64,000 nt of DNA from Magnetococcales bacterium (GTDB taxonomy: Bacteria; Pseudomonadota; Magnetococcia; Magnetococcales; JADFWU01): NCBI GenBank assembly GCA_015234045.1, contig JADFWU010000001.1, positions 191,943 to 255,942 on the forward strand, written 5' to 3'. The position numbers and the translations under genes are program-made. Under the pieces are notes generated by a model. It worked only from the letters and a program-made list of their open reading frames with translations. It had not been told where the DNA came from and made no database searches. This document shows, in pieces, positions 1-33,083 of this stretch. Position 1 is the stretch's first letter; every line of letters begins with the position of its first letter.

Positions 1-2401
1 TGCCACGCTGCATATCTTGTTCTGATGAGAGCGAGGTAACAAGGATAATTGGCATATCCTGATAGGTGTCATTTTGACGGATTTTGGCAGTTAATGCCAG
101 TCCATCAAGATTGGGCATTTCGACATCTGAGACAACGGCATCAAAGGTTTGTTTGCCAAGTTTATTTAAAGCGTCCATGCCATCAACAGCGGTTACTACG
201 GTATAACCAGCGCTTTCCAGAATTCTCTTTTCCTGAGTTCGGGTGGTAATGGAGTCTTCAGCAAGCAGGATGGTTAACCGCTCTTGCTCATTTTGAGCCT
301 CACGCGCCAATGGATCAATCAGTGGTGTGCCTTGGCCTTTCTGAACTGTCTTGATCAGATCAGTTGGGTTGATCACCATACACACTTCACCAGTGCCAAG
401 AATTGTAGCTCCTGAGATGTTACGCACCCGTTTAAGCGTATGTCCATGTGGTTTGAGGACAATTTCCTGTTCATCCAGCAATTCGTCTACAAAAATACCG
501 AGCTTTTGGCCATTGGCTTGGACAATGATACAGGGCATGACCTGATCTTCAGTACTCATGTCCATGTCAGAATCCACAGTAGTGCTGGAAGGGAGTTCCA
601 ACAAGGCGGAAAGACGGGCTACAGAGACTGGATTGCCATGAAGATTGATTGTTTCCCGGCCTTCGATTGGAAACACTTCAGACAGGGCAATACGTTGAAC
701 TGAATGAACATAATCCAACGGAATGGCAAAGTGACGATCCGCAACAGAGACGATAAACACCGGTGTGGTGGCCAATGTGATGGGCAAACGGATGGTGAAA
801 TGTGATCCTTCACCAGGCGTTGATATAACGGTGATAACACCTTTGAGTTGTTCCACAGAAGAGCGCACAGCATCCATGCCGACACCGCGACCGGAAACAT
901 CAGTTACCATGGAAGTGGTGGAAAGACCTGAAGCAAAGATCAGATTGAACGCATCATTGTCGGACATTTCTTCCGCTTCTGCCTGCCCAATCAATTTTTT
1001 CTGAACTGCGGCTTGGCGGATAGCGTTGACATTCAATCCGCGTCCATCATCCATGATCTCAATGATTACATGGGTGGGTGTGCGCGAGGCTTTCATGGTC
1101 AGTGTGCCTTCTTCAGGCTTTCCCGCCGCCAAGCGCTCATCAGGGTTTTCCAATCCATGATGCACGCCATTGCGTACCATGTGCATTAATGGATTTTTCA
1201 TCTCTTCGATGATCAGCTTATCCGCTGTGGTGTCTCCGCCTTCAACCACAAGACGGGCTTTTTTGTTCAGTTGGCGGGCTAGATCGCGCACCGTACGCGG
1301 AAAAAGGTTGAACATGGTGGAAAGCGGTAGCAGGCGAAGATTGCGAATACCCTCTTCCAACTCTCTGGCTACCAGTTCAAGGCCAGTTTCATCGTCATAG
1401 ACATTGTGGCGTAGTAGGGTCAGTTGTTGACTGATCAGCTCAACGTGATCACGTAGCTCAGTAGAGAGAGTGAGTGTGTTCTGATTGGGATCGTTTGGGT
1501 TGAGCTCACGGCTCAACTCCTCGAATTTGATTAAGGTGTCTTCAACTTCGGTCAAACGGCGCTTGATGCGGGTTTTGACTACAGAAAGTTCACCAGCCTG
1601 ACTGAGCAACCAATCCAGTTTACGCGGATCAACTCGGATCGTGTCGATCTGAAAGTTTTTTGAATCTGGAGTTGGCGTTGCACTATTCGTAGCCGGTGAA
1701 GTAGCTGATTGTTCCGTTGGCTGTTCTACATGTGTTGAAACTGGTTCTGAAGGGTTTGGATCAATACGCTCTTTCGCAGGAGGCGCAACTGGTTGCGCTG
1801 GTTGCGCTGGCGCACTTACTGGCACGGAAACGGGTTCAGCTGGTACTTTTGTCGGTTTTGTTGTCTCAACGGCTGTTGGCGTAGGTGCTGGCACAGGTGT
1901 TGGCACAGGTGTTGGCACAGGTGTTGGCACAGGTGTTGGCACAGGTGTTGGCACAGGTGTTGGCACAGGTGCTGGCACAGGTGTTGGTTCAGGCACAGGC
2001 GCTGGTTCTTTCTGTCCACCTTCGACCGCTTCATCCTTCATACGAGCTAGAGCATCGAATACAGAAATATTAGCCGCTTTACCGGTAACTGCTTCATCAA
2101 CAAAGAGGCGAATATCATCCATACCCCGTGTCAGCCGATCAACCAGTTCAGGGGTGAAGGTGAGTGTCATCTTGGAGGCAGCACCAAGAATATCTTCAAA
2201 ATGATGGGCCAGGGTTTCAACATCTCCAACACCCAGCATGCGGGCGGAGCCTTTTAGACTGTGCGCCTCACGAAACAACTCTTTTAGCGTTGCCACGTCA
2301 TCGGGCTGCTGCTCCAGGTGGAGCAGACCATCATCCAGCTTTTGAAGATGTTCTTCACACTCCGCCTTAAACAGTTCTCGGAGTTCCAGATCCTCAATCA
2401 T
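1..2401 (-). CDS. cheA: Chemotaxis histidine kinase CheA with C-terminal receiver (partial)
   Basis: CheA takes signals from receptor/CheW arrays, autophosphorylates on its Hpt domain and passes phosphate to response regulators. The gene begins at an ATG (complement of 2399-2401) and runs off the window start, so the C-terminus is missing. An N-terminal Hpt domain carries the phospho-acceptor in REAHSLKG (His47). A long Pro/Thr/Val linker follows, encoded by 12-bp tandem repeats. Then come the dimerisation and ATPase domains ([13 protein letters not shown]-box, MDDGRGL and [11 protein letters not shown]-boxes), a CheW-like P5 domain, and a receiver ([16 protein letters not shown]). It is the last visible gene of the minus-strand chemosensory cluster, about 50 bp after a chemoreceptor gene. 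The fused receiver suggests a phosphate sink or internal feedback (inference). Confidence 0.95.
1890..1985 (-). repeat. 12-bp tandem repeats in the cheA linker
   Basis: Eight consecutive 12-bp units (plus-strand consensus ggcacaggtgtt, one unit ending gct) with a degenerate unit just before at 1878-1889. The unit is a multiple of three and encodes a Thr-Pro-Val-Pro period in the linker between the Hpt and dimerisation domains, so copy-number change would alter only linker length. Confidence 0.95.
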
Positions 2402-2451: not shown

Positions 2452-3897
2452 TCAGACCATATCCTTGAGCTTTTTCGCTGTGGCGTTGAGTGATTGAACG
2501 CCGCCTTTGACCTGGGTAATTCCTGCCGCACCCTCTTTGGTGCCAGCACTGATCAGTTTCATCGCACTGACCACTTGTTTGATGGCAACCGCTTGTTGAC
2601 GTACATTCATGGAGATCTGTTGAGAACTGTCAGAGGCGCTGTTCACCGAATCGGCTACATCATTAAATGTGTCAGACATTTTTTCAGCGAGAGCCATGCT
2701 GCTGGAAACTGTTTTTGTGCCTTCTTCGGTGACCATGACAGTGGTGTTGGTGGCTTTCTGAATTTGTGAAACCAAGCCATTGATTTTTTCAGCTGAGCGT
2801 TTGCTTTCATCAGCCAATTTACGAATCTCAACTGAAAGCACAGAGAATCCTTTGCCATGTTCACCAGCGCGAACCGCTTCTACAGCGGCATTCATAGCGA
2901 GCATTTTGGTCTCATTGGCAAAATCAGTGACCGTGTTGGTAATGTTGCCGATTTGTGATGTATGTTCACTGAGGCTGAGAATCTGCTTGGCGATGGCTTC
3001 AACACGCTCTTTGGTTTCATGCATTCCATCACGCATTTCATTGACTCTATCAACACCGTCATCCACTAAATTTAGAGCATGGCGCGCATTTTCAGCGGCG
3101 TTTTCAGATTGCTCTGCGGTTTGGCGTGAGGAAGCACCGAGTTCTTCCATGGTGGTGTTGGTCTCGCTCACCGAGCTGTTTTGTTGATTCGCTACCCGTT
3201 CCTGCTGTGTCACGGTGGCTGCAATTTCGTTCGATGAAGAAGAGATGGATGAAATCGCTTGATTCAGGGCATTGGTAATGGAGTGAGCAAAAAACCAACC
3301 GATCACTATGGCCAACATAACAACGGCACAGGTGATGATCAGAGATTTGTCACGTTGGTTTTGAGCGGCTGAATAGAAGCCATTGGCTTTATTAGACGCA
3401 AAATCGATAAAGGCACCGATTGTTTCATAAAGGCGATGAACATGTTGAGCGCCTTTTTGTTGCGTGATCAATGCCGCTTCTCGACGTTTGCCAGTCATCA
3501 TGAGATCAATCACCTCATCTCTGATAGGCTTCCAGGCGATAAACAGTGCGCGGGCTTTTTTTACCTGCTGTTTATCGCCCAGAAAACGGTCATTAATAAT
3601 ATCAAAATCTTCTAAAACCATTTGTTCAATGACATCCACAGTTTTTCGTGCTGCCTGGATTCCGGTATTGTCGTGCGCGAGGGCAACATCCTTCATGGAG
3701 CGATGCATCTTGGTAATATTTCCCTCAATGCGCAGGGCAGCCGTGCTGACGGTATAGGGATGGTTAAAGAGTTTCTCCGTTAACTCTGACAGCCGCCACA
3801 TTTCTGAAATGGAGAAAATACCCAACAAAAGAAGAAGGGAGATGATCAAGGCAAAACTGTATTTCAGGCGGATGTTAAGATTGAATCGGCCAAGCAT
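2452..3897 (-). CDS. Methyl-accepting chemotaxis protein, four-helix-bundle sensor, no clear HAMP
   Basis: A 481-residue transmembrane chemoreceptor that would control CheA through CheW. A membrane helix at about 13-33 is followed by a roughly 150-residue helical periplasmic region resembling a 4HB ligand-binding bundle, and a second membrane helix at about 187-208. The cytoplasmic part is a coiled-coil signalling domain whose hairpin tip reads ETKMLAMNAAVEAVRAGEHG, followed by a KGFSVLSVE segment. The coiled coil (SSISSSSNEIAATV) starts almost directly after the second membrane helix, with no room for a normal HAMP of about 50 residues. ATG start. It lies between the second receptor gene and cheA in the same operon-like run and shares its signalling domain with that receptor, suggesting duplication. 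Confidence 0.92.
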   Translation of the reverse strand: MLGRFNLNIRLKYSFALIISLLLLLGIFSISEMWRLSELTEKLFNHPYTVSTAALRIEGNITKMHRSMKDVALAHDNTGIQAARKTVDVIEQMVLEDFDIINDRFLGDKQQVKKARALFIAWKPIRDEVIDLMMTGKRREAALITQQKGAQHVHRLYETIGAFIDFASNKANGFYSAAQNQRDKSLIITCAVVMLAIVIGWFFAHSITNALNQAISSISSSSNEIAATVTQQERVANQQNSSVSETNTTMEELGASSRQTAEQSENAAENARHALNLVDDGVDRVNEMRDGMHETKERVEAIAKQILSLSEHTSQIGNITNTVTDFANETKMLAMNAAVEAVRAGEHGKGFSVLSVEIRKLADESKRSAEKINGLVSQIQKATNTTVMVTEEGTKTVSSSMALAEKMSDTFNDVADSVNSASDSSQQISMNVRQQAVAIKQVVSAMKLISAGTKEGAAGITQVKGGVQSLNATAKKLKDMV

Positions 3898-3945: not shown

Positions 3946-6090
3946 TTAAACCATTTTTCTTAGTTTTTGTACGGTTTCATTCAGGGTGTGTACACCGGAT
4001 TTTATCTCTTTCATACCGATTGCGGTCTCTTTGGCACCGGTGTTAAGCGATTTCATTGCTTCACCAACCTGATTGACAGCAACAGATTGTTGTTGCAGGT
4101 TCAGAGAAATCTGTTGTGCATTGTCGCCTGAATTATTCACCGCTTCCAAAACTTCATGGAACGTCTCAGCCATGTTGTCCATCAGGGCACGTCCGTGAGC
4201 AACGGTTTTTGTACCTTCTTCTGTAACCATAACCGTGGTGTGTGTGGTTTTCTGTATCTCTTCGATCAGGCTATTAATCTGAGCCGCAGATTTTTTACTC
4301 TCATCGGCTAATTTACGGGTTTCAACAGCTAAAACTGAAAATCCTTTACCATGTTCTCCGGCTCTAACAGCTTCAACAGCGGCATTCATGGCGAGCATTT
4401 TTGTTTCATTGGCAAAGTCAGTCACCATCCGTGTAATACCACGGATCTGATCTGTACGTTCGCTCAATTGCAAAATCTGGTTGGCGATATCATCAGTACG
4501 TTGTTGAATGCCATCCATATTTTCTAGCATCTCCGAGGCACGCATTGAGCCATGTTCGGCCAGTTCAATGGCTTTTTCAGAGTTGGATGCTGCGGAATTG
4601 GATTGCTCGGAAGAGAGTCGCGCTGATGTGCTTAACTCTTCCATGGTGGTATTGGTTTCATTGACTGATGTTGCTTGTTGAGAGGAGATGCGTTCCTGTT
4701 GGTTGATGGTGGCGGCAATTTCGGTAGATGAACTGGATATGACCGTAATGGCTTCTTTGATAGGACGACTGATTGAGCGACCAATCAACCATGCAACAGC
4801 ACTGATAATCACGATACAGATTAATCCAGCAACCCAAAGAGCCCAACGCAAATGATCAACAGCAGCATAGGCCTCTTGATGTTGCCAAGAGGTAATCATC
4901 GCCCAATTCATGCCAAGCAAGTTAACAGGTTTATGTGCCAGCAGTACTGTGTTGCCCAGATAATCCGTGGCTATTTTTTCAAGATCAGACGCACCTTGAA
5001 ATGTTTCAGTAATATGTTCATTACGATACGTAAGGTTTCCAATGGTGGTCTTGTGGCGTTTGATCCGATTTATGGCAGTGTCAGAAATGCCATGCGCTTT
5101 GAGTGCGGTGCTGAACGCTTCTGGTGATTGAATCATGGGTCTGGCATCACTACGGAATTTGTAATCCGGTCCAATGAGAAAGCTTTCACCTGTCTTGCCT
5201 AAGCCCACTTTTTCCCACTGACGACTATTGGTCATAATCGCGTTGATCTTTTCGATGGGTATCTGAAGAATTATGACACCGGAAATGTCGTTATTGTCGT
5301 GAATGGGAGAGGCAATAAACGCGCTGGAGGCGTTGTAGGAGGGTGCATAGCGTTCAAAATCTATCAAATGGACAGAGTTTTTCTGTTTGGATTCCAATGC
5401 CTGAATAAAGACTCTGCCAATATTAGCATCACTATAGGGTCCAGAAAACAGACTGGTAGCAAAATCAATTTCTTTGAACACTGAGTAGACCACGCGGCCA
5501 GCTTTGGCATCCACCAGAAATAGATCGTAGTAACCGAATTTTTCCAGATAAGCACGGAAAAAGGGGTGATAACGTGCATGTGCTTTATCGTAATCGTTAT
5601 TATAGGAGCCGGAATCCAGTTGCTGTTTACTTCCAATAGGATGGGTGTTGGCTGCAATGTAGTCATGTTGGAGAATCCGACTGGTTAGATCGGATGGCCA
5701 CCAAAGCTTGAGTGCATCAGAGCTTGCATCCAGCGTATTTTCCACTTGGTATTGATAGCGATTACGCAGGGCTTGATCATTGGTTTCCAGGTTGTTGTTG
5801 TACTGCTTGCCAGACTGTTGTTCAACGCGAAAAAAACCTTTGCTGAGATCATTAAGTGCAGTCAACGTATTTCTATCACGGGCCAGAATCTCTGTTTGAG
5901 CCCGGATTGAGGAAAAATAGTCTGTTAGTCGCTCGGTTTTACTCTCTTGAATAAATTCCAACTGAGCAAAAATAGAGTCACGCAAGCTGTCAGCACTTTG
6001 ATTTTGAGCATAGAGGCCAATAAACAAAAATGGTCCCAAGCCAAATATCCAAAACAGTGCGATCAATCTCGTAGAGAGAGGAAGTTTCAT
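3946..6090 (-). CDS. Methyl-accepting chemotaxis protein with large Cache-type sensor
   Basis: A 714-residue chemoreceptor. A membrane helix at about 7-29 precedes a periplasmic region of about 390 residues that looks like a double-Cache domain (features such as YDLFLVDAKAGRVVYSV, FIASPIHDNN and GKTGESFLIG). A second membrane helix lies near 425-447. The segment GRSISRPIKEAI resembles the first helix of a HAMP domain, but the signalling coiled coil (ISSSSTEIAATINQQE) follows at once, so HAMP appears truncated. The hairpin tip is the same as in the neighbouring receptor (MLAMNAAVEAVRAGEHGKG). ATG start with a GAGG-like site. It follows the double-CheW gene by 11 bp, so the two are probably co-transcribed. 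The ligand cannot be read from the sequence. Confidence 0.93.
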   Translation of the reverse strand: MKLPLSTRLIALFWIFGLGPFLFIGLYAQNQSADSLRDSIFAQLEFIQESKTERLTDYFSSIRAQTEILARDRNTLTALNDLSKGFFRVEQQSGKQYNNNLETNDQALRNRYQYQVENTLDASSDALKLWWPSDLTSRILQHDYIAANTHPIGSKQQLDSGSYNNDYDKAHARYHPFFRAYLEKFGYYDLFLVDAKAGRVVYSVFKEIDFATSLFSGPYSDANIGRVFIQALESKQKNSVHLIDFERYAPSYNASSAFIASPIHDNNDISGVIILQIPIEKINAIMTNSRQWEKVGLGKTGESFLIGPDYKFRSDARPMIQSPEAFSTALKAHGISDTAINRIKRHKTTIGNLTYRNEHITETFQGASDLEKIATDYLGNTVLLAHKPVNLLGMNWAMITSWQHQEAYAAVDHLRWALWVAGLICIVIISAVAWLIGRSISRPIKEAITVISSSSTEIAATINQQERISSQQATSVNETNTTMEELSTSARLSSEQSNSAASNSEKAIELAEHGSMRASEMLENMDGIQQRTDDIANQILQLSERTDQIRGITRMVTDFANETKMLAMNAAVEAVRAGEHGKGFSVLAVETRKLADESKKSAAQINSLIEEIQKTTHTTVMVTEEGTKTVAHGRALMDNMAETFHEVLEAVNNSGDNAQQISLNLQQQSVAVNQVGEAMKSLNTGAKETAIGMKEIKSGVHTLNETVQKLRKMV

Positions 6091-6101
6091 AATAGCTGCC
6101 C

Positions 6102-7187
6102 TTAAATCGTTTCGTTAACGACAAGATCACCACTGGTTAAAATGCGCTCCAGATCCAAAATACTGAGCATGCGATTTTCATAAGGTGCTGCGCCCAAAAG
6201 ATACTCCCTTTTTAACGCACCCAATGCAGCAGGAATAGGCGCGATATCATTCTCCTGAAGCTGAATAACATCAATAATATCATTTATTAAAACACCAAGA
6301 TGGATGTCTCCATGATTGAGTACTACCGCTTTGTTTGGTTGTTTTTCATCGGGTGCTTTTAAGTTCAAAAAGCTGGACATGTCAACCACGGTGAGGATAT
6401 CACCACGCAGGTTGATATCACCGATGATATGGCCGGGACAGCATGGCACAGGCGAGATGTTGCGTACTTGAGCAAACCCGCGTACCAGATTGAGGTCAAT
6501 GCCGAGAAATTCACCGTGAAGTGTGATTACGGCAAGGGATTTGAAAACAGTATCGCGTTCATCCTGATCGCCGGACAGTATCCGCATCAGCCGTTTGGCG
6601 CGTTGCTGTAGAATGGCGCGTTCTTCCTGTGTTGCCTCGGGATGAAAGCTACGCGGATCAGTCAGCGCATCCAGCTCCATAAGTTCATCGTCTGAGCTGG
6701 TATCACCATCACCATTGGAAAAATCATAAACAATAGGGGCCAACAGCAGATCACCGGTTGAAAGCAGCATGATCATCTGCTCTTCAATGCGGGCAACGCC
6801 TTTAATGAATTGTTGTTGGGTGAGACGACGGCTATCACCATCGGAAAATGTTGGTGCGTCATCAATATTCTCATGAGGTATTTCCATGACATCTTGAATA
6901 TCGGTGACGATAATGCCTAACTTTTCATTATCATTTCGAACAACGATGACCGCATCGGAGAGCTTATAGCTGTGCGGATGTCGGCCAAGGCGGATGTTGA
7001 GATCAAGAACCGGCACAACCTGACCGCGTAGATTGATCACACCGATAACATGGCTCGGTGCTTCTTCCATGGGTGTGATCTCTGGCAGACGGACAATCTC
7101 TTGGACATTATGGGCACTTACGCCATAATTTTTGTCCAGTAGATTAAATACCAGATAGGGATATGAGCTTGGTTGCACTGTTTCCAT
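6102..7187 (-). CDS. Double CheW-domain coupling protein
   Basis: A 361-residue cytoplasmic protein with two CheW-like domains, about 8-150 and 218-350, where ordinary CheW has one in about 160 residues. Each copy shows the CheW pattern: IGVINLRGQVVPVLDLNIRLG in the first and IGDINLRGDILTVVDMSSFL in the second. CheW couples receptors to the P5 domain of CheA; two tethered copies could bridge two partners (inference). ATG start. It sits 11 bp upstream of the Cache receptor gene and downstream of cheR in a co-directional run. A name such as cheV is not justified because there is no receiver domain. Confidence 0.93.
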   Translation of the reverse strand: METVQPSSYPYLVFNLLDKNYGVSAHNVQEIVRLPEITPMEEAPSHVIGVINLRGQVVPVLDLNIRLGRHPHSYKLSDAVIVVRNDNEKLGIIVTDIQDVMEIPHENIDDAPTFSDGDSRRLTQQQFIKGVARIEEQMIMLLSTGDLLLAPIVYDFSNGDGDTSSDDELMELDALTDPRSFHPEATQEERAILQQRAKRLMRILSGDQDERDTVFKSLAVITLHGEFLGIDLNLVRGFAQVRNISPVPCCPGHIIGDINLRGDILTVVDMSSFLNLKAPDEKQPNKAVVLNHGDIHLGVLINDIIDVIQLQENDIAPIPAALGALKREYLLGAAPYENRMLSILDLERILTSGDLVVNETI

Positions 7188-7309: not shown

Positions 7310-8908
7310 TTATCGTTCAAGTTGTTCTTTTAATTGATCACATAATACACTGACCGGCCATGCTTCATAGCCTGTTATTTTCGCATCCTTCGGCATTTTC
7401 AGAAGCAGTTCCAAGGCGGTTTCACGCATTTTGCGGGCATGTTTGTTCTTTGATTCATGTGCATAGATACCTGCTAATTCAAGATAGGCTGAGACATGAT
7501 CATGGGAGAGATAGATGGTTTTTTTCAATGCTTTTTTAGCGTGTTCCGGTTGGCCTTGCTCTTGAGCCAGTTGCGCCAGTAGAAAATGTGGTTCAGCCGA
7601 GAAACCATTTTCTTTGATCGCTTTTTGGCACGCTTGATCAGCATCATCCAGACGACCTAAATTCGCTAGAGCGCGTGCCAGGATAAGGTGTGCTTGAAAA
7701 GTGAGATCACCTTTGGCCAATGTGGAATCTTTAATCAATGCGTTCTGTATTGATTCAACCAGTTCAATGGATTTAGGGTAGGCACCATTCTGAAGTGCTT
7801 GTGCGGCTTCGGCTAAAAGTTGGTCCAGATCCGGTTTTGATTCTGAAACATTGGATCGACGTCTTGAAAAAGCGCTATGGCGGTGGCTTTGCGCTGAACT
7901 CAATGTGTCAGGCCGTTTTTTAAATCTGTTTCGGCTGTTTGTTTCAGTGGTTTTTGAGCGATCAATTCTGGTGGGTCTATCTTTGCGTGCTTGGCGTTCA
8001 GAGCGGGTTGTTGCACGGATTGTCAGTGAAGATGTATGTGATGTTGTTATGGATTTTGGTGACTTGATTACAGGGGGTTTAGGTTTGTGATAGACCAGCG
8101 ATTCAGGATAGAGACGTGCTTGAAGCCCAAATTGAGATTTGTTAGACACCTCAGCATGGCCGGTGAGAAAGTAACCACCCTGTGTCAGGCTTTCACCGAA
8201 CTTCTTCACCAACCCGTTGATGGTCTCTGCATCAAAATAGATAAATACATTTCGGCAAATGATTAAATCAAAATCATAAAGGTTGCTGCCAGATGCGGGA
8301 AACAGCTCTTTAATCAGATTCAGGTAACGAAACTCAACGGTCTGACGAATTGCATCATTAAGTTGATAATATTGACCTTTTTTTTCAAAAAAAGTGTCGA
8401 TAAAATAAGGTTCTACACGGCGAAAAGACCATTCGTTATAGGTGGCCTTTTTTGCAAAAGAGAGGGCTTGTTCATTGATGTCGCTGCCGAGGATGAAAAC
8501 CTGCCAGGCATCCCAGTCAGGTAGGATATCACGGAGGATCATGGCCAGTGAGTAGGGCTCTTCACCGGTGGAGCACCCAGCACTCCAGATGCGTAATTGT
8601 TTGGAATTTTGCCGCTGTTGGATCAGGTCCGGCAATAGCACATCGCGCAGCAGAGAGATTTGACCGGAATCTCGAAAGAAGTAACTTTCACCAGTGGTCA
8701 GTACTAAAACAAGCTGACGCCACTCTTCATTGGCTTGCAGCGTGTCACTATCAAGCAGTGTGAGATAGTGATCAAAAGTTTTGCATTTACATGTACGAGA
8801 ACGGGTTGCCAAGGTCTTTTCCAACAGGCCGGTGTCATGACTTGGTATGACAAGACCTGTATGGGTTTCAACGACCCGCCGGAATCTCTCGATTAAATCG
8901 TTTTCCAA
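7310..8908 (-). CDS. cheR: CheR-type chemoreceptor methyltransferase with C-terminal TPR-like tail
   Basis: Uses S-adenosylmethionine to methylate glutamates on chemoreceptors during adaptation. The N-terminal helical domain carries the CheR feature ESYFFRDSG near residue 75, the SAM-binding motif GCSTGEEPYSLAMIL lies near 110, and the late signature CRNVFIYFDAETING near 220. Residues from about 275 onward are an extension: a basic Ser/Thr/Arg-rich linker, then tetratricopeptide-like helical pairs (ARALANLGRLDDADQACQ, EPHFLLAQLAQEQGQPEHAK). The 532 residues are about twice the length of enteric CheR. The start is a TTG (complement of 8906-8908) preceded by AGGA at a fitting distance. TPR tails on CheR are known; here it probably targets the enzyme to partners. 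Confidence 0.93.
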   Translation of the reverse strand: MENDLIERFRRVVETHTGLVIPSHDTGLLEKTLATRSRTCKCKTFDHYLTLLDSDTLQANEEWRQLVLVLTTGESYFFRDSGQISLLRDVLLPDLIQQRQNSKQLRIWSAGCSTGEEPYSLAMILRDILPDWDAWQVFILGSDINEQALSFAKKATYNEWSFRRVEPYFIDTFFEKKGQYYQLNDAIRQTVEFRYLNLIKELFPASGSNLYDFDLIICRNVFIYFDAETINGLVKKFGESLTQGGYFLTGHAEVSNKSQFGLQARLYPESLVYHKPKPPVIKSPKSITTSHTSSLTIRATTRSERQARKDRPTRIDRSKTTETNSRNRFKKRPDTLSSAQSHRHSAFSRRRSNVSESKPDLDQLLAEAAQALQNGAYPKSIELVESIQNALIKDSTLAKGDLTFQAHLILARALANLGRLDDADQACQKAIKENGFSAEPHFLLAQLAQEQGQPEHAKKALKKTIYLSHDHVSAYLELAGIYAHESKNKHARKMRETALELLLKMPKDAKITGYEAWPVSVLCDQLKEQLER

Positions 8909-8926: not shown

Positions 8927-9340
8927 TCACTCGGGAAGTTCACTGAGCGTCCAGTACATGTTGATGGTTTGTATGACATCAACAAACTGAACATAGTCTA
9001 CCGGTTTTACCATATATCCTGCTACACCTAGATTGAAACTTTTTACCCGGTCCATTTCATCTTTGGAGGTGGTAAGAATAATGACCGGTATGGTTTTTAA
9101 TGCATTATCCTGTTTGACCACTTCCAGAAACTCGATGCCGTTCATTCTGGGCATATTGATATCCAGCAGAACAATACACGGGCGTTCATTGTCGGGATTG
9201 CGGAGCCACGCCAGCGCCTCTTCACCATTTTTAGCGCGTTCAACGTTGTTGGTGACATGGACCTTTTTTAGAGATCGTTTCACCGTCATGGCATCAACTT
9301 GATCATCCTCAACCAGAAGGATTGGTTTTTGATTACGCAT
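8927..9340 (-). CDS. Single-domain response regulator, Rcp1-like
   Basis: A 137-residue stand-alone receiver with no output domain. It has the acidic pocket (LLVEDDQVD), the phospho-acceptor in VLLDINMPRMNG, a switch Thr in ILTTS and the Lys in VKPVD. The extended loop around the acceptor resembles the Rcp1 family that pairs with phytochrome-type kinases. It starts at an ATG and lies between the short histidine-kinase gene and cheR, so that kinase is the obvious phosphodonor candidate (inference from context). Confidence 0.9.
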   Translation of the reverse strand: MRNQKPILLVEDDQVDAMTVKRSLKKVHVTNNVERAKNGEEALAWLRNPDNERPCIVLLDINMPRMNGIEFLEVVKQDNALKTIPVIILTTSKDEMDRVKSFNLGVAGYMVKPVDYVQFVDVIQTINMYWTLSELPE

Positions 9341-9355
9341 CCGTTTTATCTCTCC

Positions 9356-10120
9356 TCAAGCGTCCACATGAACAGGCCAGGTAAAGTGAAACGTACAATT
9401 CAAACCTGGCTCAGATGTGACCCAGACAGTACCACTATGCAGTTGAACAATTTTTTTGACCAGGGTAAGACCCACGCCGGTGCTTTCATACTCATCTCGG
9501 GCTTGAAGCGTCTGAAAGATTTGGAAAACGGTCTCATGGTGTTTTGGATCAATCCCTGGCCCATTATCGCTGACGGTGAATGTCCATAGATTATCTTCTG
9601 GGCCAGCGCAGTGGATACTGATTTCGCCCACTTCTTTATCATTGAATTTTATCGCATTGGATAACAGATTTTGAAACAGTTGGTGAATGCGGGTTTTGTC
9701 ACCGGAAATTGTCGGTAAGTCGGTGGGATAGGTAATCTGATAGCGTTGAGGATCAGGAGCCAACAGGTCAATGACCTGTGGTAACAGTGTGTTTAAATTA
9801 ACCAAACTGCTCGCTTCGCAGACGCGACCCACCCGCGAATATTGTAGAATGCCGTCAATCAAGCCTTCCATCCGTTTGACCCGACTGCTTAACAGTTCCA
9901 ACTGTTCCTGGCCATCTTCATCGACCACATCAACGTAATCTTCAGTGATCCATTGCACCAGAGAGCTGATCGCACGCAGTGGTGCTTTGAGATCATGAGA
10001 AACGATATAGGCAAACTCTTTCAACGCCTGATTGGAGCGTTCCAACTCAGTGAGCAGTTTGTTCTGCTCTTCACGTGTTAAAGCACGGTCTGTTGGAAGG
10101 GTTTCAGAGGTATCACTCAT
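9356..10120 (-). CDS. Short soluble histidine kinase (HisKA-HATPase)
   Basis: A 254-residue kinase with no membrane segment or sensor domain. After a short coiled coil, the phospho-acceptor lies in FAYIVSHDLKAPLRAI near residue 43. The ATP-binding domain has an N-box in LFQNLLSNAIKFND, a G1 box in VSDNGPGID and a G2-like STGVGLTLVKKIV. The SHDLKAPLR type of H-box is typical of phytochrome-related kinases. The start codon overlaps the stop of the upstream CheB-hybrid gene by 4 bp (10117-10120), implying translational coupling. Its HK region closely resembles the kinase end of that protein, so it may have arisen from it by duplication. Lacking its own sensor, it probably receives input by protein contact. 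Confidence 0.9.
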   Translation of the reverse strand: MSDTSETLPTDRALTREEQNKLLTELERSNQALKEFAYIVSHDLKAPLRAISSLVQWITEDYVDVVDEDGQEQLELLSSRVKRMEGLIDGILQYSRVGRVCEASSLVNLNTLLPQVIDLLAPDPQRYQITYPTDLPTISGDKTRIHQLFQNLLSNAIKFNDKEVGEISIHCAGPEDNLWTFTVSDNGPGIDPKHHETVFQIFQTLQARDEYESTGVGLTLVKKIVQLHSGTVWVTSEPGLNCTFHFTWPVHVDA

Positions 10121-12609
10121 GCACTCTGCTCCTGTTGCTGTTCAAACCGTTTAGGTAGGGGATCGGGTTTCAGTGGCAAGGTAAAGGTAAAGGTCGATCC
10201 CTGGCCAAGTGTGCTGTTGACTTGTATTTTGCCTTGATATTGCATGATGATTTTTCGAGTAATCGCCAGGCCCATGCCGATGGTTTCTAAATCGTCACGG
10301 GGTTGGAGTGTTTGAAAAACTTGGAAAATCTTTTCAAAATAGCGCGAGTCAATGCCTGGTCCGGTATCACTGATCTGAAACTGATACCAATGATCACGCT
10401 GTTGCCAGTTGATGGTAACATGTCCTGTTGGTTGTTCCATGAAACGTATGGCATTGTCCAGCAGATGATGGAAAATCTGTTCAGCACGCCGTTCGTCAAA
10501 ATGAATGTTGGGTAAAGGGATTGGGATCTGGATATCAATCTGATCTGACGGTTCAATCTGCTTGATAATACGTTTGATCAGGCGGTTTAGATTGACATCA
10601 GTCAGTGTGTCATTGATCCGGGATACCTTGGTGTATTGCAGCAAGGCATCGATGAGATCATTGATGCGTGTGGCGCGTCGTGCCAATAACTCGACCATCT
10701 CCGTACCATCAGCGTCCAGTTGTTGACCGTAATCGGAAACAATCCAGTTGGCCAATGATCCGATGCTTCGAAAAGGGGCTTTGAGATCATGGGAAATAAT
10801 GTGGGCAAAGTCATCCAACTCGCTGTTGGCTTGTTCCAGCTCGGAAAGAAGTTTCTCCTGTCCGGCCTCGATGCGTACGCGCTCTTGAATCTCAGTCTCT
10901 AAGCGCTGGTTGAGTTGATCTCGATTCTGGACCTGTTCCACCAGTTTCATGTTGAGCATTTTGAGATCCAACTGCTGATCAGACAGCGTTTGATTTTGAT
11001 TCAAAGTGCGCTGGTAGGTGGCTAACAGTAGATTTAAGATCTGCCGTCGTGTAGAGGTGATCACATAAGTCTGGTCACCAAATGAAACTTCTAAACCGGG
11101 CGCATTGGCGGACTCTGCACTGTCAGCGGAATTGCTCTGTTTTAGGATCTCAGCAATATGGAGCAGAATATCCGCTTCCTGCCAGGGTTTGGTCAGATAG
11201 TTGTCTGCACCGGCATCCAAGCCTTTTAGAATCTCGCCAGGATTGGTCAATGCGGTGAGTAGAATGACCGGAATATGTTTGATTGCCGGGTCACTCTTGA
11301 TGGCCTGACACAGTTCAAAACCATCCATTCGCGGCATGGACACATCAGAAACGATCAGCTCAGGGTGTTCCTGATGGGTTTTTTCCAGCCCTTCCTGACC
11401 ATCTTTGGCTGTTGTAATACGATAGCCATTTTGTTGAAGGGTCTTTTTGAGTTTAAAAGCTTGGGTTGGACTGTCTTCAACAATGAGTAGGTGTGGGCCG
11501 TTGGTTTCCAGTTCGGGTGAGGGCGTACTCTCTGACAGTCCCGACAGGGTGATTAACGCTTTGCCAATATCAGCACCGGACAAAATATATCGTGCCGCAC
11601 CCAATTGCATGGCTTGACGCGGTAGATCAAAGGAGAGTGCGCTATCTCGACTTTGTACCAGTGTGACACCACCTGCTTGATAAATCGCCTGAAGACCGCG
11701 CAAACCATCCGTGCCTGCACCGGAGAGCAAAACACCCGCTACTGTTTCCCCTAAATGACGCGCAGCAGACTCCATTATACGGCTGATGGATGGGCGGCGA
11801 TTGTTGATGGGCGGGCTCTCATCCAGCCGCACACGGCCCCGATTATCCAAATAGATATGGTTATCAGCTGGTGGCAGATAGATGGCACCAGGTGCAGGGA
11901 CGGTATTATCTTCCAAAATATGAATTGGCATGCGTACATGCTGTGAGAGCCATCCAGCTAATTCGGGCATCAATTGGGCGGGTAGATGAACAATGCACAA
12001 AATCGGGGCTGGAAAGGTGGTGGACAGAGGAGCCAGAACCTCTTTGATAGCCTGTGGACCACCTAACGTTGCGCCAACAATGACCATATTCAGTGCGGGT
12101 GCTGGTTTGTCCGGTAACGGTGTTGGCCGATGCTGTAGATCGCTCTCCTTGGGGAGTGCCGCATGGTTGATACGTGCCAGAATACGAACCCGTTTGGCCA
12201 GTCTCTGGCGTTCATCCAGGTCACCTTGAAACAGATCGGAGAGCGGTGTTGGAAACAGATCAGCGGCACCGGCTTCCAGTAAGTGGAACAGATTACACTC
12301 TTCCTGATCCTTGCTGTTTACACTGTAAAGCAGAATGGGCAAGGCGCTTTTCTGTAGTATCTTACGGATAAAATGGTGTAGTTCCAGAACCGGATGATTG
12401 AGATTGGCACAGATCACCTGAACATTCAGATCATCCAGTTGGTTGATGCCATCTTGAGTCGATTTAGCGCTGCCAACCACGGTAATATCGGATTGAGATT
12501 CCAGATCGCGCCGAATCATGGTGAGTGCCAAGGGCGCACTTTCTAAAATGAATACCCGAATAGGCGTGGGCGTGGCGGGATGGATTCCTGAATCTGTATC
12601 AGCCATCAA
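10117..12609 (-). CDS. Pseudo-receiver / CheB-like / receiver / histidine kinase fusion
   Basis: An 830-residue cytoplasmic fusion. Residues 15-130 resemble the CheB receiver but lack its key residues: the phospho-acceptor Asp is Asn69 (VICANLNHP), the acidic pair is replaced (FILESA) and the switch Lys is Thr (LFPTPL). Residues about 173-355 are a CheB methylesterase-like domain. His208 (IVHLPAQ) and Asp301 (GAGTDGLRGL) are kept, but the nucleophile serine of GASTGG is Thr181 (GATLGG). A normal receiver follows (Asp422 in VSDVSMPRMDG), then a coiled coil, a phospho-acceptor His607 (IISHDLKAPFRSI) and an ATPase domain (ISDTGPGID). ATG start. It sits where cheB would be expected, yet probably lacks normal demethylase activity. 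It may act as a scaffold that senses receptor state for its kinase end (inference). Confidence 0.9.
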   Translation of the reverse strand: MMADTDSGIHPATPTPIRVFILESAPLALTMIRRDLESQSDITVVGSAKSTQDGINQLDDLNVQVICANLNHPVLELHHFIRKILQKSALPILLYSVNSKDQEECNLFHLLEAGAADLFPTPLSDLFQGDLDERQRLAKRVRILARINHAALPKESDLQHRPTPLPDKPAPALNMVIVGATLGGPQAIKEVLAPLSTTFPAPILCIVHLPAQLMPELAGWLSQHVRMPIHILEDNTVPAPGAIYLPPADNHIYLDNRGRVRLDESPPINNRRPSISRIMESAARHLGETVAGVLLSGAGTDGLRGLQAIYQAGGVTLVQSRDSALSFDLPRQAMQLGAARYILSGADIGKALITLSGLSESTPSPELETNGPHLLIVEDSPTQAFKLKKTLQQNGYRITTAKDGQEGLEKTHQEHPELIVSDVSMPRMDGFELCQAIKSDPAIKHIPVILLTALTNPGEILKGLDAGADNYLTKPWQEADILLHIAEILKQSNSADSAESANAPGLEVSFGDQTYVITSTRRQILNLLLATYQRTLNQNQTLSDQQLDLKMLNMKLVEQVQNRDQLNQRLETEIQERVRIEAGQEKLLSELEQANSELDDFAHIISHDLKAPFRSIGSLANWIVSDYGQQLDADGTEMVELLARRATRINDLIDALLQYTKVSRINDTLTDVNLNRLIKRIIKQIEPSDQIDIQIPIPLPNIHFDERRAEQIFHHLLDNAIRFMEQPTGHVTINWQQRDHWYQFQISDTGPGIDSRYFEKIFQVFQTLQPRDDLETIGMGLAITRKIIMQYQGKIQVNSTLGQGSTFTFTLPLKPDPLPKRFEQQQEQSA

Positions 12610-12627: not shown

Positions 12628-12786
12628 AGGACCACGGAAAAAATTCATCATCCCATTCACTGGTCTCTTGATCCGTCCACTGCGTTCCAGAAAGGGTTAC
12701 GTGCAATAAGCACGCGCCCCTTTCTGCGCCTTGCGGACGAATCAATATCCTGCGCGACTGGGATGATGAATTCTTTCCGTGGCCCT
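12628..12786. repeat. Family A inverted-repeat element, copy 1 (MITE-like)
   Basis: A 159-bp element bounded by 28-bp inverted ends (12628-12655 and 12759-12786, 26 of 28 positions matching). A second copy at 32916-33074 differs at about 4 of 159 positions. Further inverted pairs lie inside (a cagaaaggg/ccctttctg pair and a ttgatccgtcc/ggacgaatcaa pair), so the whole element can fold into one long hairpin. There is no room for a transposase gene. It lies in the intergenic gap between the CheB-hybrid gene and the CheY-like regulator gene. Confidence 0.9.
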
Positions 12787-12854: not shown

Positions 12855-13256
12855 TCAGCTGAGTAAACCCAAGTTTTTCAGCTTGTCGGTCAGTGTGCCA
12901 TGATTCACTGGTTTGACCATGTAATCAGTTGCGCCATCGCGATAGTAGGCTTTTATCACATCCTTAGGTGAGTCGAGCGCGGTGACCATGATGATTTTTA
13001 CTTCTCCCGAGGGATGAATGCCAAGCTCTTTTTCCTTGGTGCGGATGGCGCTGACTGCTTTGTGACCATCCATCTCCGGCATCATGATATCCATAAGGAT
13101 TAAATTATAAGGTTCACCATCCGCATGGGCCATGACAAAGGCATCAACCGCTTCTTGACCATCCACAACCATATCACTACTGGCATTATGTTGACTCATC
13201 AGTTTTTGTAGCAACATGCGATTATTGAACTCATCATCAGCAATCAAGACTTTCAT
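12855..13256 (-). CDS. Single-domain CheY-like response regulator
   Basis: A 133-residue stand-alone receiver: acidic pocket VLIADDEFNNRM, phospho-acceptor in LILMDIMMPEMDG, switch Thr in IMVTALDS and Lys in MVKPVNHG. No DNA-binding or enzymatic output domain. The ATG at 13254-13256 is preferred over an in-frame GTG 18 bp upstream because a G-rich run just before it can serve as ribosome-binding site. It probably shuttles phosphate from one of the kinases of the cluster to an unknown target. It is separated from the CheB-hybrid gene by a family A element and from the upstream kinase gene by a family B element. Confidence 0.9.
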   Translation of the reverse strand: MKVLIADDEFNNRMLLQKLMSQHNASSDMVVDGQEAVDAFVMAHADGEPYNLILMDIMMPEMDGHKAVSAIRTKEKELGIHPSGEVKIIMVTALDSPKDVIKAYYRDGATDYMVKPVNHGTLTDKLKNLGLLS

Positions 13257-13291
13257 ATTCCCCCCCCCTAACACAGGTCACTATAGTAGTA

Positions 13292-13483: not shown

Positions 13484-16400
13484 CTACAACTCTGATAACC
13501 GTTCTTCAAGGATTTCCAGGTGTTTATTAGCTTTGACCATATCCTCTTTACGGGCTGCGAGAATAAAATGAAAAGCGGATTGCCTGATTGTGCTGATACC
13601 TTGGGATTCTGCTACTCGTTTCATTTTTTGACCAAGGGCTTCAACGCGTTCGGGTTCATTGGCGGTCAGTGCTTCTTTTAACACGGTAAGCAACTCAAAC
13701 ATAATCATTTTGAACTGCTCGGTATCTGGACAATTTGACGCACTTTTAGCCGCTTTTTTGGCCATCAGTGCTTGAGCGCGTTTACGCATGGTTTCTTTGT
13801 CTGGTCGATTGGGGCGGCGGGTTTGGTTGCGCTTGTCCATCACCCGTTCCAGCTCTCCCAACAATGTTTTGGCATGATAGGGCTTGGTGACAAAGCCATC
13901 CATGCCCACTGCTTTGGCTTGTTCTCGGTGATCATCCAAAGCGTGGGCTGTTGTGGCGATTACTGGAATACGGGTGTTGAAACGCGGTGCCCGGTGATTG
14001 CGGATTTTCTGTGTGGTTTCAAATCCATTCATGTCGCCAATGAGTTTGAGATCCATCAGGACTACGTCAAATCGCTCGGTCTCCAGTATGGTAAGAGCCA
14101 GGGAACCGGAATCTGCAATCACCGCATTACAGCCGTGGCGCTTGAGAATCTCCATGGTGGTACGTTGACTGCCGGGATCATCTTCTACCAGGAGAATTCG
14201 CCAGTCGCGTTTTTTTGCAGCCTTTTGGATGCCTGTATTGTGTTCGATTGGCGTAAATATGCGCTGTAGTTCTTCCCGTTTAACCGGTTTAATTAAACAA
14301 CGGGCGTTCACATCTTTAGCAAGAGCGATATCATCTTTACGGTGGTTGGCTTTGAGCATCAGTCCGATGGGACCGCTAAAATTGATTTTATTTCTCAGCG
14401 TGCCAGCCAGTTCAAAACCACCGATATCCGGCATTCGGCTGTCGAGAATGACCGCATCAAATGGGCGACCAAGATTCTGAGCATTTTGGATCAGCTCCAG
14501 ACCATTGAGGCCGTTTGCTGTTGTTTCCACTTGGGCACCGAAACCGGTGAAAATTTCTTGAATAATGGTCCGGTTGATCTTGCTGCTGTCCATAACCAAA
14601 ATAGTGCGTTTTGACCAGCTGTTGTCCTGTATTTCAGTAAGAGGGCGCTTGAGGGTTTTGACCTGACTGGTAAAGGTAAATGTACTGCCTTTATGTTCTT
14701 CACTCTTAACCCGAATCTCTCCACCCATGAGTGCGACAAGGCGTTGAGAGATTGCCAGTCCCAAACCCGTTCCACCATGCTTGCGCGTGGTACTGCCATC
14801 CACTTGAGTAAAATTATCGAAAATTGCGCTGACGCGATGGGCTGGGATACCAATTCCAGTATCAATAATTGAAATAATCAGTTCGGTATCTCTGTTTTCA
14901 GACAGTTTATACTGAACATCCAGGATGATTTCGCCCTCTTCGGTGAACTTGATGGCATTGTTGAGTAAGTTAACGACTACCTGTCTCAAACGGGCCGGAT
15001 CGCCGCGCACCTGTTCTGGAATAAAGGGGTCAACTCGGCAGTAGATACCAAGTCCCTTACGATGGGCCTGAATGGCCAACGCTTCGCTGGCCTTTTCAAA
15101 TAGACCGCGTGGATTGAATGTGATCGACTCCAGTTCCAGTTTTCCGGCTTCGATTTTGGAAAAATCCAGAATGCCGTTAAGCAGAGAAAGCAGAGACTCT
15201 GCCGACTCCAAAACAATGGATAGAAATTTATTCTGTTCTGGATTCAGTGATGTCTGAAGGGTGAGTTCGGTCATGCCGATAATGGCGTTCATCGGCGTGC
15301 GGATTTCGTGGCTCATGTTGGCAAGAAAGTCGCTTTTGGCACGGCTGGCAGATTCGGCCAGCTCTTTTGCTTGCTTCAGATCCGCTTCCATTTGTGTTCG
15401 CTGGATAATACCAGCCAGTGTATCTGCAATGGAAATCAGGAACGATACTTCTTCAGGATTGCTTTTTGTGCCTTGTCTGACATAGAGATTCAAGATGCCA
15501 AACAGCTGTTGATCAGAATCAATGGGCACAATATATTGACCGTGATCGTTGATGTCGGTCTGTTCTGAATCTGCAATCGGAATATAGCAACCATTATCTT
15601 TTTGAACATGGCCGGTATAGATTAACTCACGGGTTTGAGCGGCTTTTCCGCACAAACAATGCCCAAAGGATATGTTGTGGCACGCTTTGGTGATTGTAGG
15701 CACCATGCCTCTATGGGCGTACATGGTCAGCGTATCACTGTTTTCCTGATCTACCAGAAATATAGAGCCTCGTTTCTCCAATGCTAACCATGAAATGGAA
15801 AGAATATGGTTGAGAATGCGGTCCAGTTGGTCATGCAGGTCGATGGACTCTAAAGAGACTTGCAGCACTTTGCTGATGGTACGTTGAATATCGTGATTGC
15901 GTCGAACGCGCTCCTCAATGGCTTTTTGTTCGGTAATGTTACGTAACACGCCCATGGAGCCGATACGCTCGCCAGAACCACTTTTCAACGGTGAGGCTGA
16001 GAGAAAGCTTATGAATGTGGTGCCATCCAGGCGGCGATTGGTCACTTCACCAGAAAAGGCATTATCCAGATCCAGGGCATGGGTTATGGCGTGATATTGA
16101 TCGGATTGAGCGTAAAGTAGTGAGAGTGGTTGACCGATCATCTCACTCCGGCTACAGGAAAAATTGTCCTGAGCGGCTTTGTTGAACTCTATGATATTGT
16201 GTTGCTGATCCACACCGATGATCATGTCCAGGGAGCTGTCTACCAGTCTTTGAGCGTACTCTCTGGCATTGCCGAGATTTTCCATGGCCTGTTTGTGGCG
16301 AACCGCTTTTTTTACCACCACTGGTAACAGTTGCAGATAGTTGCGATCATGGTCTTTGATCATATAGTCAAAGGCACCGGCCTTCATGGCTTGAACCGCG

Positions 16401-16666
16401 ACTTCTTCGTCACCACCACCGGTAACAACGATGGTTGGAATCAGGCCAACAGCGTCAAAGATGTCCAGAGCCGTACCATCACCGAGTCGAAAATCAGCAA
16501 TGATCACGTCAAAATCGTTTTGTCCCAGGGCTTCACGTGCGGAAGAGAGCGAACCGGCAATGGTAAACAGGTAGGGCAGCTTCTCACGCCGTACCAGACG
16601 CTTGAAGGCCATTTGATCCACCGTGTCATCTTCCACCAAAAGCAGTTTATACTTGGCTTCAGTCAT
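13484..16666 (-). CDS. Hybrid histidine kinase: REC-PAS-GAF-HisKA-HATPase-REC-REC
   Basis: A 1060-residue cytoplasmic kinase without membrane helices. In order: an N-terminal receiver ([22 protein letters not shown]; about 5-125), a PAS domain (about 135-255), a GAF domain (about 275-430, with the cysteine-bearing FGHCLCGKA), a HisKA domain with [15 protein letters not shown], and an ATPase domain ([20 protein letters not shown]). A receiver with an incomplete acidic pocket (LVMDSSKIN, but [11 protein letters not shown]) and a full receiver ([18 protein letters not shown]) follow. The last 100 or so residues are helical and could be a degenerate Hpt, but no clear phospho-acceptor motif is seen. 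ATG start. It is first in the co-directional chemosensory run and could be a cytosolic input to it. Confidence 0.93.
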
Positions 16667-32915: not shown

Positions 32916-33074
32916 AGGGCCACGGAAAAAATTCATCATCCCATTCACTGGTCTCTTGATCCGTCCACTGAGTTCCAGAAAGGGTTACGTGCAATAAGCA
33001 CGCGCCCCTTTCTGCGCCTTGCGGACGAATCAATATCCTGCGCGACTGGGATGATTAATTTTTTCCGTGGCCCT
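32916..33074. repeat. Family A inverted-repeat element, copy 2 (MITE-like)
   Basis: A 159-bp element with 28-bp inverted ends at 32916-32943 and 33047-33074. It is about 97 percent identical to the copy at 12628-12786, with one difference in the interior and the other three in the ends. It sits between the rpn-like and GNAT genes, ending about 10 bp from the GNAT stop codon. Its folded transcript could act as a terminator-like structure for the GNAT gene. Confidence 0.9.
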
Positions 33075-33083
33075 TATAGTTGA

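Follow-up and report, generated by a model that had tools for sequence, protein, structure and literature searches.

We examined a 64,000-nucleotide stretch of a Magnetococcales contig (C29; the whole stretch is hereafter called the window), which begins inside a chemosensory operon that runs past the window edge. The genes of this operon follow a conserved order: a hybrid kinase, a small receiver protein, a CheB-kinase fusion, a stand-alone kinase (HK254), an Rcp-type regulator (RECrcp), CheR-TPR, a double CheW, MCP, CheA-REC, CheB, and REC-HK. The cluster combines CheR-TPR with multidomain response regulators, which are marks of ACF-type pathways (PMC3447774), and its MCPs terminate without a pentapeptide. 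The fusion, a pseudo-CheB hybrid kinase, occupies an open reading frame at 10117-12609 on the minus strand. Two adjacent starts are available to it, a TTG giving 830 aa and an ATG (12606) giving 829 aa; the ribosome-binding site is better placed for the ATG, which is preceded by an AGGA motif. Residue numbers in the text count from the TTG, and 1 is to be subtracted for the ATG start.

Features of the operon within the window
Feature	Position	Strand	Remarks
CheA-REC; runs ~80 bp beyond the window edge	2..2401	-	
MCP1	2452..3897	-	Pfam
MCP2	3946..6090	-	Pfam
Double CheW	6102..7187	-	Pfam
CheR-TPR methyltransferase	7310..8908	-	Pfam
RECrcp, Rcp-type single-domain response regulator	8927..9340	-	
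HK254, stand-alone HisKA-HATPase kinase; 4-bp overlap between its start and the fusion stop	9356..10120	-	
Pseudo-CheB hybrid kinase gene (REC1*-CheB*-REC2-coil-HisKA-HATPase)	10117..12606	-	829 aa from ATG
HATPase_c of the fusion	10168..10497	-	Pfam
HisKA of the fusion, with His607	10624..10818	-	Pfam, alignment
REC2 of the fusion, intact receiver (Asp422)	11155..11487	-	Pfam, alignment
CheB-like domain of the fusion; nucleophile Ser replaced by Thr181 (12067-12069), His208 and Asp301 retained	11554..12084	-	Pfam, alignment
REC1 of the fusion, degenerate receiver; Asn69 (12403-12405) replaces the Asp, and Thr the switch Lys	12217..12564	-	alignment, model
Small receiver protein of the conserved block	12855..13274	-	Pfam
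REC-PAS-GAF-HK-REC hybrid kinase of the conserved block	13484..16666	-	Pfam

Two minor features accompany these genes. A palindromic MITE-like element of ~162 bp (12628-12786) separates the fusion start from the small receiver gene; its 31-nt arms are 90% complementary, it folds at -108 kcal/mol (z -12.7), and it has dozens of matches in the genome, several of them 94-98% identical, including another at ~32916-33077. In cheA, a short tandem repeat (~1816-2050) encodes a long Val-Pro-Thr-Pro linker of repetitive sequence that follows the Hpt domain.

From its N terminus, the fusion consists of a degenerate receiver (REC1), a CheB domain, an intact receiver (REC2), a coiled coil, HisKA, and HATPase. 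Pfam matched CheB_methylest at residues 176-352 (151 bits against a cut-off of 24), REC at 375-485, HisKA at 598-662, and HATPase at 705-814, and the N-terminal receiver was evident from alignment and from a structural model. Pfam and alignment together bear out the first-pass annotation, made from the letters of the window, in placing the HisKA His607, an HATPase_c domain, and an intact receiver with Asp422 in a single chain, which makes the protein a hybrid histidine kinase. Pfam found no CheR match in the fusion, so it is not a CheB/CheR fusion; nor did it find a PAS domain, and its match for the kinase was HisKA.

That annotation had also read a threonine at the site of the CheB nucleophile and an otherwise complete catalytic triad, and both observations stood. 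In a phmmer comparison with the PDB and in a MAFFT alignment with 30 other CheB-domain proteins, Thr181 (codon ACG) fell on the serine of GASTGG in 1a2o, the equivalent of Ser164, which is the nucleophile of Salmonella CheB; a serine of the fusion aligned at this site was looked for in both and none was found. The alignment also showed that the catalytic His208 and Asp301 are retained. In REC1, the phospho-acceptor Asp is Asn69 and the switch Lys is Thr, as had been noted, and the conserved Ser/Thr is still Ser; the acidic pair, which had been counted as lost, is Glu-Ser and keeps one acidic residue. The fusion fell below both NCBIfam cut-offs for CheB (258 vs 342 and 258 vs 293). Judged by the residue at its nucleophile site, the fusion falls outside the catalytic CheB enzymes, and the esterase function of its CheB domain has probably been lost.

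The altered domain had been proposed to hold the CheB position in place of a demethylase, alongside an intact CheR. This part of the reading did not survive a look past the window edge, where a canonical cheB starts ~80 bp outside the window, its start overlapping the end of cheA, and is followed by a 561-aa REC-HK gene (G000:C29:189102-191863). The encoded CheB (353 aa) has GASTGG and the receiver Asp and lies above both NCBIfam cut-offs (352 vs 342 and 328 vs 293). Genome-wide, we found eight CheB domains, seven of which have Ser/His/Asp, the fusion being the sole exception; a genome lacking CheB is thereby ruled out. Among the seven are CheB/CheR fusion proteins (L005, L008), which resemble our fusion in carrying a CheB domain within a multidomain chain, but differ from it in having a CheR-like part in that chain and an intact Ser/His/Asp. 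The operons of relatives likewise carry a canonical CheB. Because a canonical CheB is encoded beside cheA, demethylation need not be missing and there is no imbalance of a CheR without CheB. Its sequence and setting make the fusion an additional, altered CheB alongside a normal one, and it more likely adds a signaling branch to the receptor array than replaces the enzyme.

The fusion is present, in a conserved gene order, in 14 of the 48 Magnetococcales genomes sampled. With profile A1, thirteen members scored 450-530 bits, whereas stand-alone CheBs of the order reached at most 370; the fourteenth member (G039) is divided between two contig ends. Outside Magnetococcales, no fusion was found among ~350 other genomes of the phylum, where scores did not exceed 334 bits, and hits from cyanobacteria, Nitrospinota, and Nitrospirota proved to be stand-alone CheBs with GASTGG. 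Thr at the nucleophile site occurs only here; 11 members have Gly, one (G002) has Asp and has also lost the catalytic His, and one (G009) has Ser. Serine was kept in 1 of 13 fusions vs 67 of 67 distinct non-fusion CheB domains, a difference not attributable to chance. His208 is conserved in 12 of 13 fusions and Asp301 in all 13. The surrounding pocket has changed family-wide: T182 is mostly Leu, Q207 mostly Val, and M298 mostly Thr, G328 has become Asp or Glu, and M329 has become Leu. The replaced positions are nearly invariant in canonical CheB, and the structural Gly and Pro stay in the fusions. A one-base error in sequencing or alignment at codon 181 (ACG vs TCG) was also considered, and is irrelevant to the family finding given the changes in REC1 and the pocket and the Gly/Asp orthologues. 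The fusions form one clade (100/100) in which the Ser-retaining G009 member branches first (100/95), so that the loss of the nucleophile appears to have followed the fusion; the tree was rooted at the midpoint and has long end branches, and the deep placement of the clade among CheBs is not supported in it.

We then considered whether the nucleophile-less domain is still maintained. Its dN/dS was ~0.06-0.30, about that of the kinase part and on average somewhat higher than that of the canonical CheB catalytic domain (0.10-0.18), values that apply to one genus, the best sampled, with synonymous sites near saturation in several pairs. Identity among the fusions was 25-34% in REC1, 30-46% in CheB*, 58-66% in REC2, and 50-58% in the kinase. 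An AlphaFold model of REC1-CheB*, a check that the first-pass annotation had called for, reached a pLDDT of 87 and matched whole CheB structures (VIA Z of 37.7 to 6ymz, 36.5 to 1a2o, and 29.5 to 3sft); the full-length model (pLDDT 58) was set aside. The model and the Pfam score agree that the fold of the CheB catalytic domain is retained. Compared with canonical CheB (PF01339; Salmonella, 1a2o), the fusion shares both domain folds, the His and Asp of the triad, and the structural glycines, but it has no Ser nucleophile, an altered pocket, a receiver without a phospho-acceptor, an attached receiver-kinase, and scores below the NCBIfam cut-offs. Overall, the domain looks inert yet not decaying. 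Because orthologues carry Gly or Asp and other pocket residues have changed while fold and selection are kept, Thr181 is more likely the product of drift at a site no longer in use than a substitute nucleophile.

The neighbors of the fusion travel with its kinase. Operon order is conserved across families: a single contig carries all of it in this genome and in G002, and G011 and G026 have it nearly complete; in G009 the cheA contig stops inside cheA. The genomes with orthologues of HK254 (at least 257 bits) and of RECrcp were precisely the 13 whose fusion bears a kinase, a count that includes two (G034, G044) in which the gene runs off the contig and the kinase is expected by context; 0 of the 35 other genomes had them. 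The remaining fusion, in G018, is a CheB*-REC-coil protein of 587 aa (L075:15948-17708) that has lost the kinase domain; HK254 and RECrcp orthologues are absent from that genome, and no REC-HK gene was found beside its fusion. Part of this co-occurrence may reflect inheritance of one gene block, and its Fisher value takes no account of phylogeny. The fusion shares 47% identity with the operon's REC-HK across its REC2-linker (199 residues) and 43% with HK254 across its kinase, and the HK254 orthologue of G009 keeps a REC-linker N terminus (496 aa, L070:2281-3768), which suggests that HK254 is a trimmed REC-HK. Taken together, these similarities make the fusion look like a mosaic of relatives of its neighbors. 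RECrcp matched the Rcp-type regulators of phytochrome kinases (RcpA, RcpB, Rcp1; 1k68, 1k66, 1jlk) over nearly its whole length and, like them, lies beside a HisKA kinase; unlike them, it belongs to a chemosensory operon with no phytochrome adjacent.

A similar set of parts has been described in Rhodospirillum centenum, where the CheA-REC protein CheA3 passes phosphate to a receiver of the hybrid kinase CheS3, and CheY3 receives phosphate from CheS3 only (PMC3868531). As in the Che3 cluster, the operon encodes a hybrid kinase together with CheA-REC, CheB, CheR, CheW, MCP, and a stand-alone regulator, and this second hybrid kinase has two receivers, one degenerate and one intact, ahead of the kinase. 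However, CheS3 is a REC-REC-PAS-HWE kinase without CheB, whereas the fusion has a pseudo-CheB after its degenerate receiver and a HisKA kinase, with neither PAS nor an HWE-class kinase by Pfam; its regulator is Rcp-like, unlike that of the CheS3 system. By analogy, the fusion may act like CheS3 within its che operon.

Because the ingredients of the CheS3 system occur in the operon and a pseudo-CheB is attached to the kinase, we favor, with a little better than even confidence, a docked second kinase: a paralogue of CheB, joined to a receiver-kinase, that lost its esterase activity, was kept for docking beside the canonical CheB, and drives RECrcp. The pseudo-CheB part would dock on the MCP/CheW/CheA-REC array, and docking would escape phosphorylation control by CheA because the acceptor of REC1 is lost. 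CheA-REC would then phosphorylate Asp422 of REC2, as CheA3 does CheS3, and the coiled coil would set the activity of HisKA/HATPase. The fusion kinase and HK254 would in turn phosphorylate the adjacent Rcp-type regulator, a step supported by their exact co-occurrence. Docking by a dead CheB is possible according to published measurements, in which the S164A variant matched active CheB in its affinity for the receptor body, although the binding is weak (~200 to 850 μM without the pentapeptide; PMC8609364). This weak affinity, with operon MCPs that have no pentapeptide, counts against docking, and the conservation of His208 and Asp301, neither of which docking alone would require, counts against docking as the only role. 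Furthermore, the kinase-less protein of G018 implies that the pseudo-CheB-REC module must have its own role there. The first-pass annotation had envisaged a receptor-sensing scaffold that feeds a phosphorelay rather than a demethylase. The probable loss of esterase function, the fold kept under purifying selection, and the link to kinase and regulator agree with such a scaffold, and docking is plausible from the S164A binding; the replacement of CheB does not hold, and sensing fits poorly with the finding that CheB, active or S164A, did not significantly favor either the substrate or the product form of the receptor (PMC8609364).

The main rival to the docked kinase, which we consider unlikely, is a competitive brake, in which the dead CheB occupies receptor sites or the regulator-docking site of CheA and shields the receptors from canonical CheB, with REC2, plus the kinase where present, tuning the shielding. 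The published binding of dead CheB to the receptor body, the canonical CheB in the same operon, and the retention of CheB*-REC in G018 without any kinase are all consistent with it, but it leaves the joint retention of the kinase domain, HK254, and RECrcp in 13 genomes unexplained, and the weak affinity would demand much protein. Such shielding could also be an additional role alongside docking.

A less probable alternative, to which we give little credence, is that CheB* prefers one modification state of the MCPs and relays that state to the attached kinase. The pseudoenzyme would then read the methylation state of the array into a second kinase and an Rcp-type regulator, giving two outputs, CheA activity and adaptation state. 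The fold and the triad His/Asp conserved under selection, and the direct fusion to a receiver-kinase, are what such a reader would have; the lack of form preference in canonical CheB argues against it. It is more doubtful still that Thr181 is a working nucleophile in a domain that remains an esterase, perhaps with a different rate or substrate, and is controlled by the attached kinase. Threonine carries a hydroxyl, His208 and Asp301 are kept, and the earliest-branching family member has Ser/His/Asp; however, 12 orthologues have Gly or Asp at the site, the pocket motifs are altered, the NCBIfam cut-offs are missed, and a canonical CheB is present. Finally, that the CheB part is a functionless, eroding leftover of a recent fusion, as the faster divergence of REC1 and CheB* than of REC2 and the kinase might indicate, is very hard to reconcile with the low dN/dS of the dead domain, with open frames and fold retained across several families, and with its retention in G018 without the kinase.

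To our knowledge, chemosensory adaptation enzymes have nearly always been treated as catalysts, and we found no description of a nucleophile-less CheB family in the literature searched, which included few subscription papers. In this lineage, the operon encodes a normal CheB as well as a second, inert-looking one whose fold is kept under selection with a kinase attached. If the docking model is true, it would show how an adaptation enzyme, put to use as an adaptor, can give a chemosensory array a further output. The family would then also offer a natural series for assigning roles to its parts: G009 has Ser, the others have Gly, Thr, or Asp, and G018 has lost the kinase. Another duplication was observed in this operon type: G003, which is without the fusion, has two tandem canonical-looking cheB genes after cheA (L087:7620-9825).
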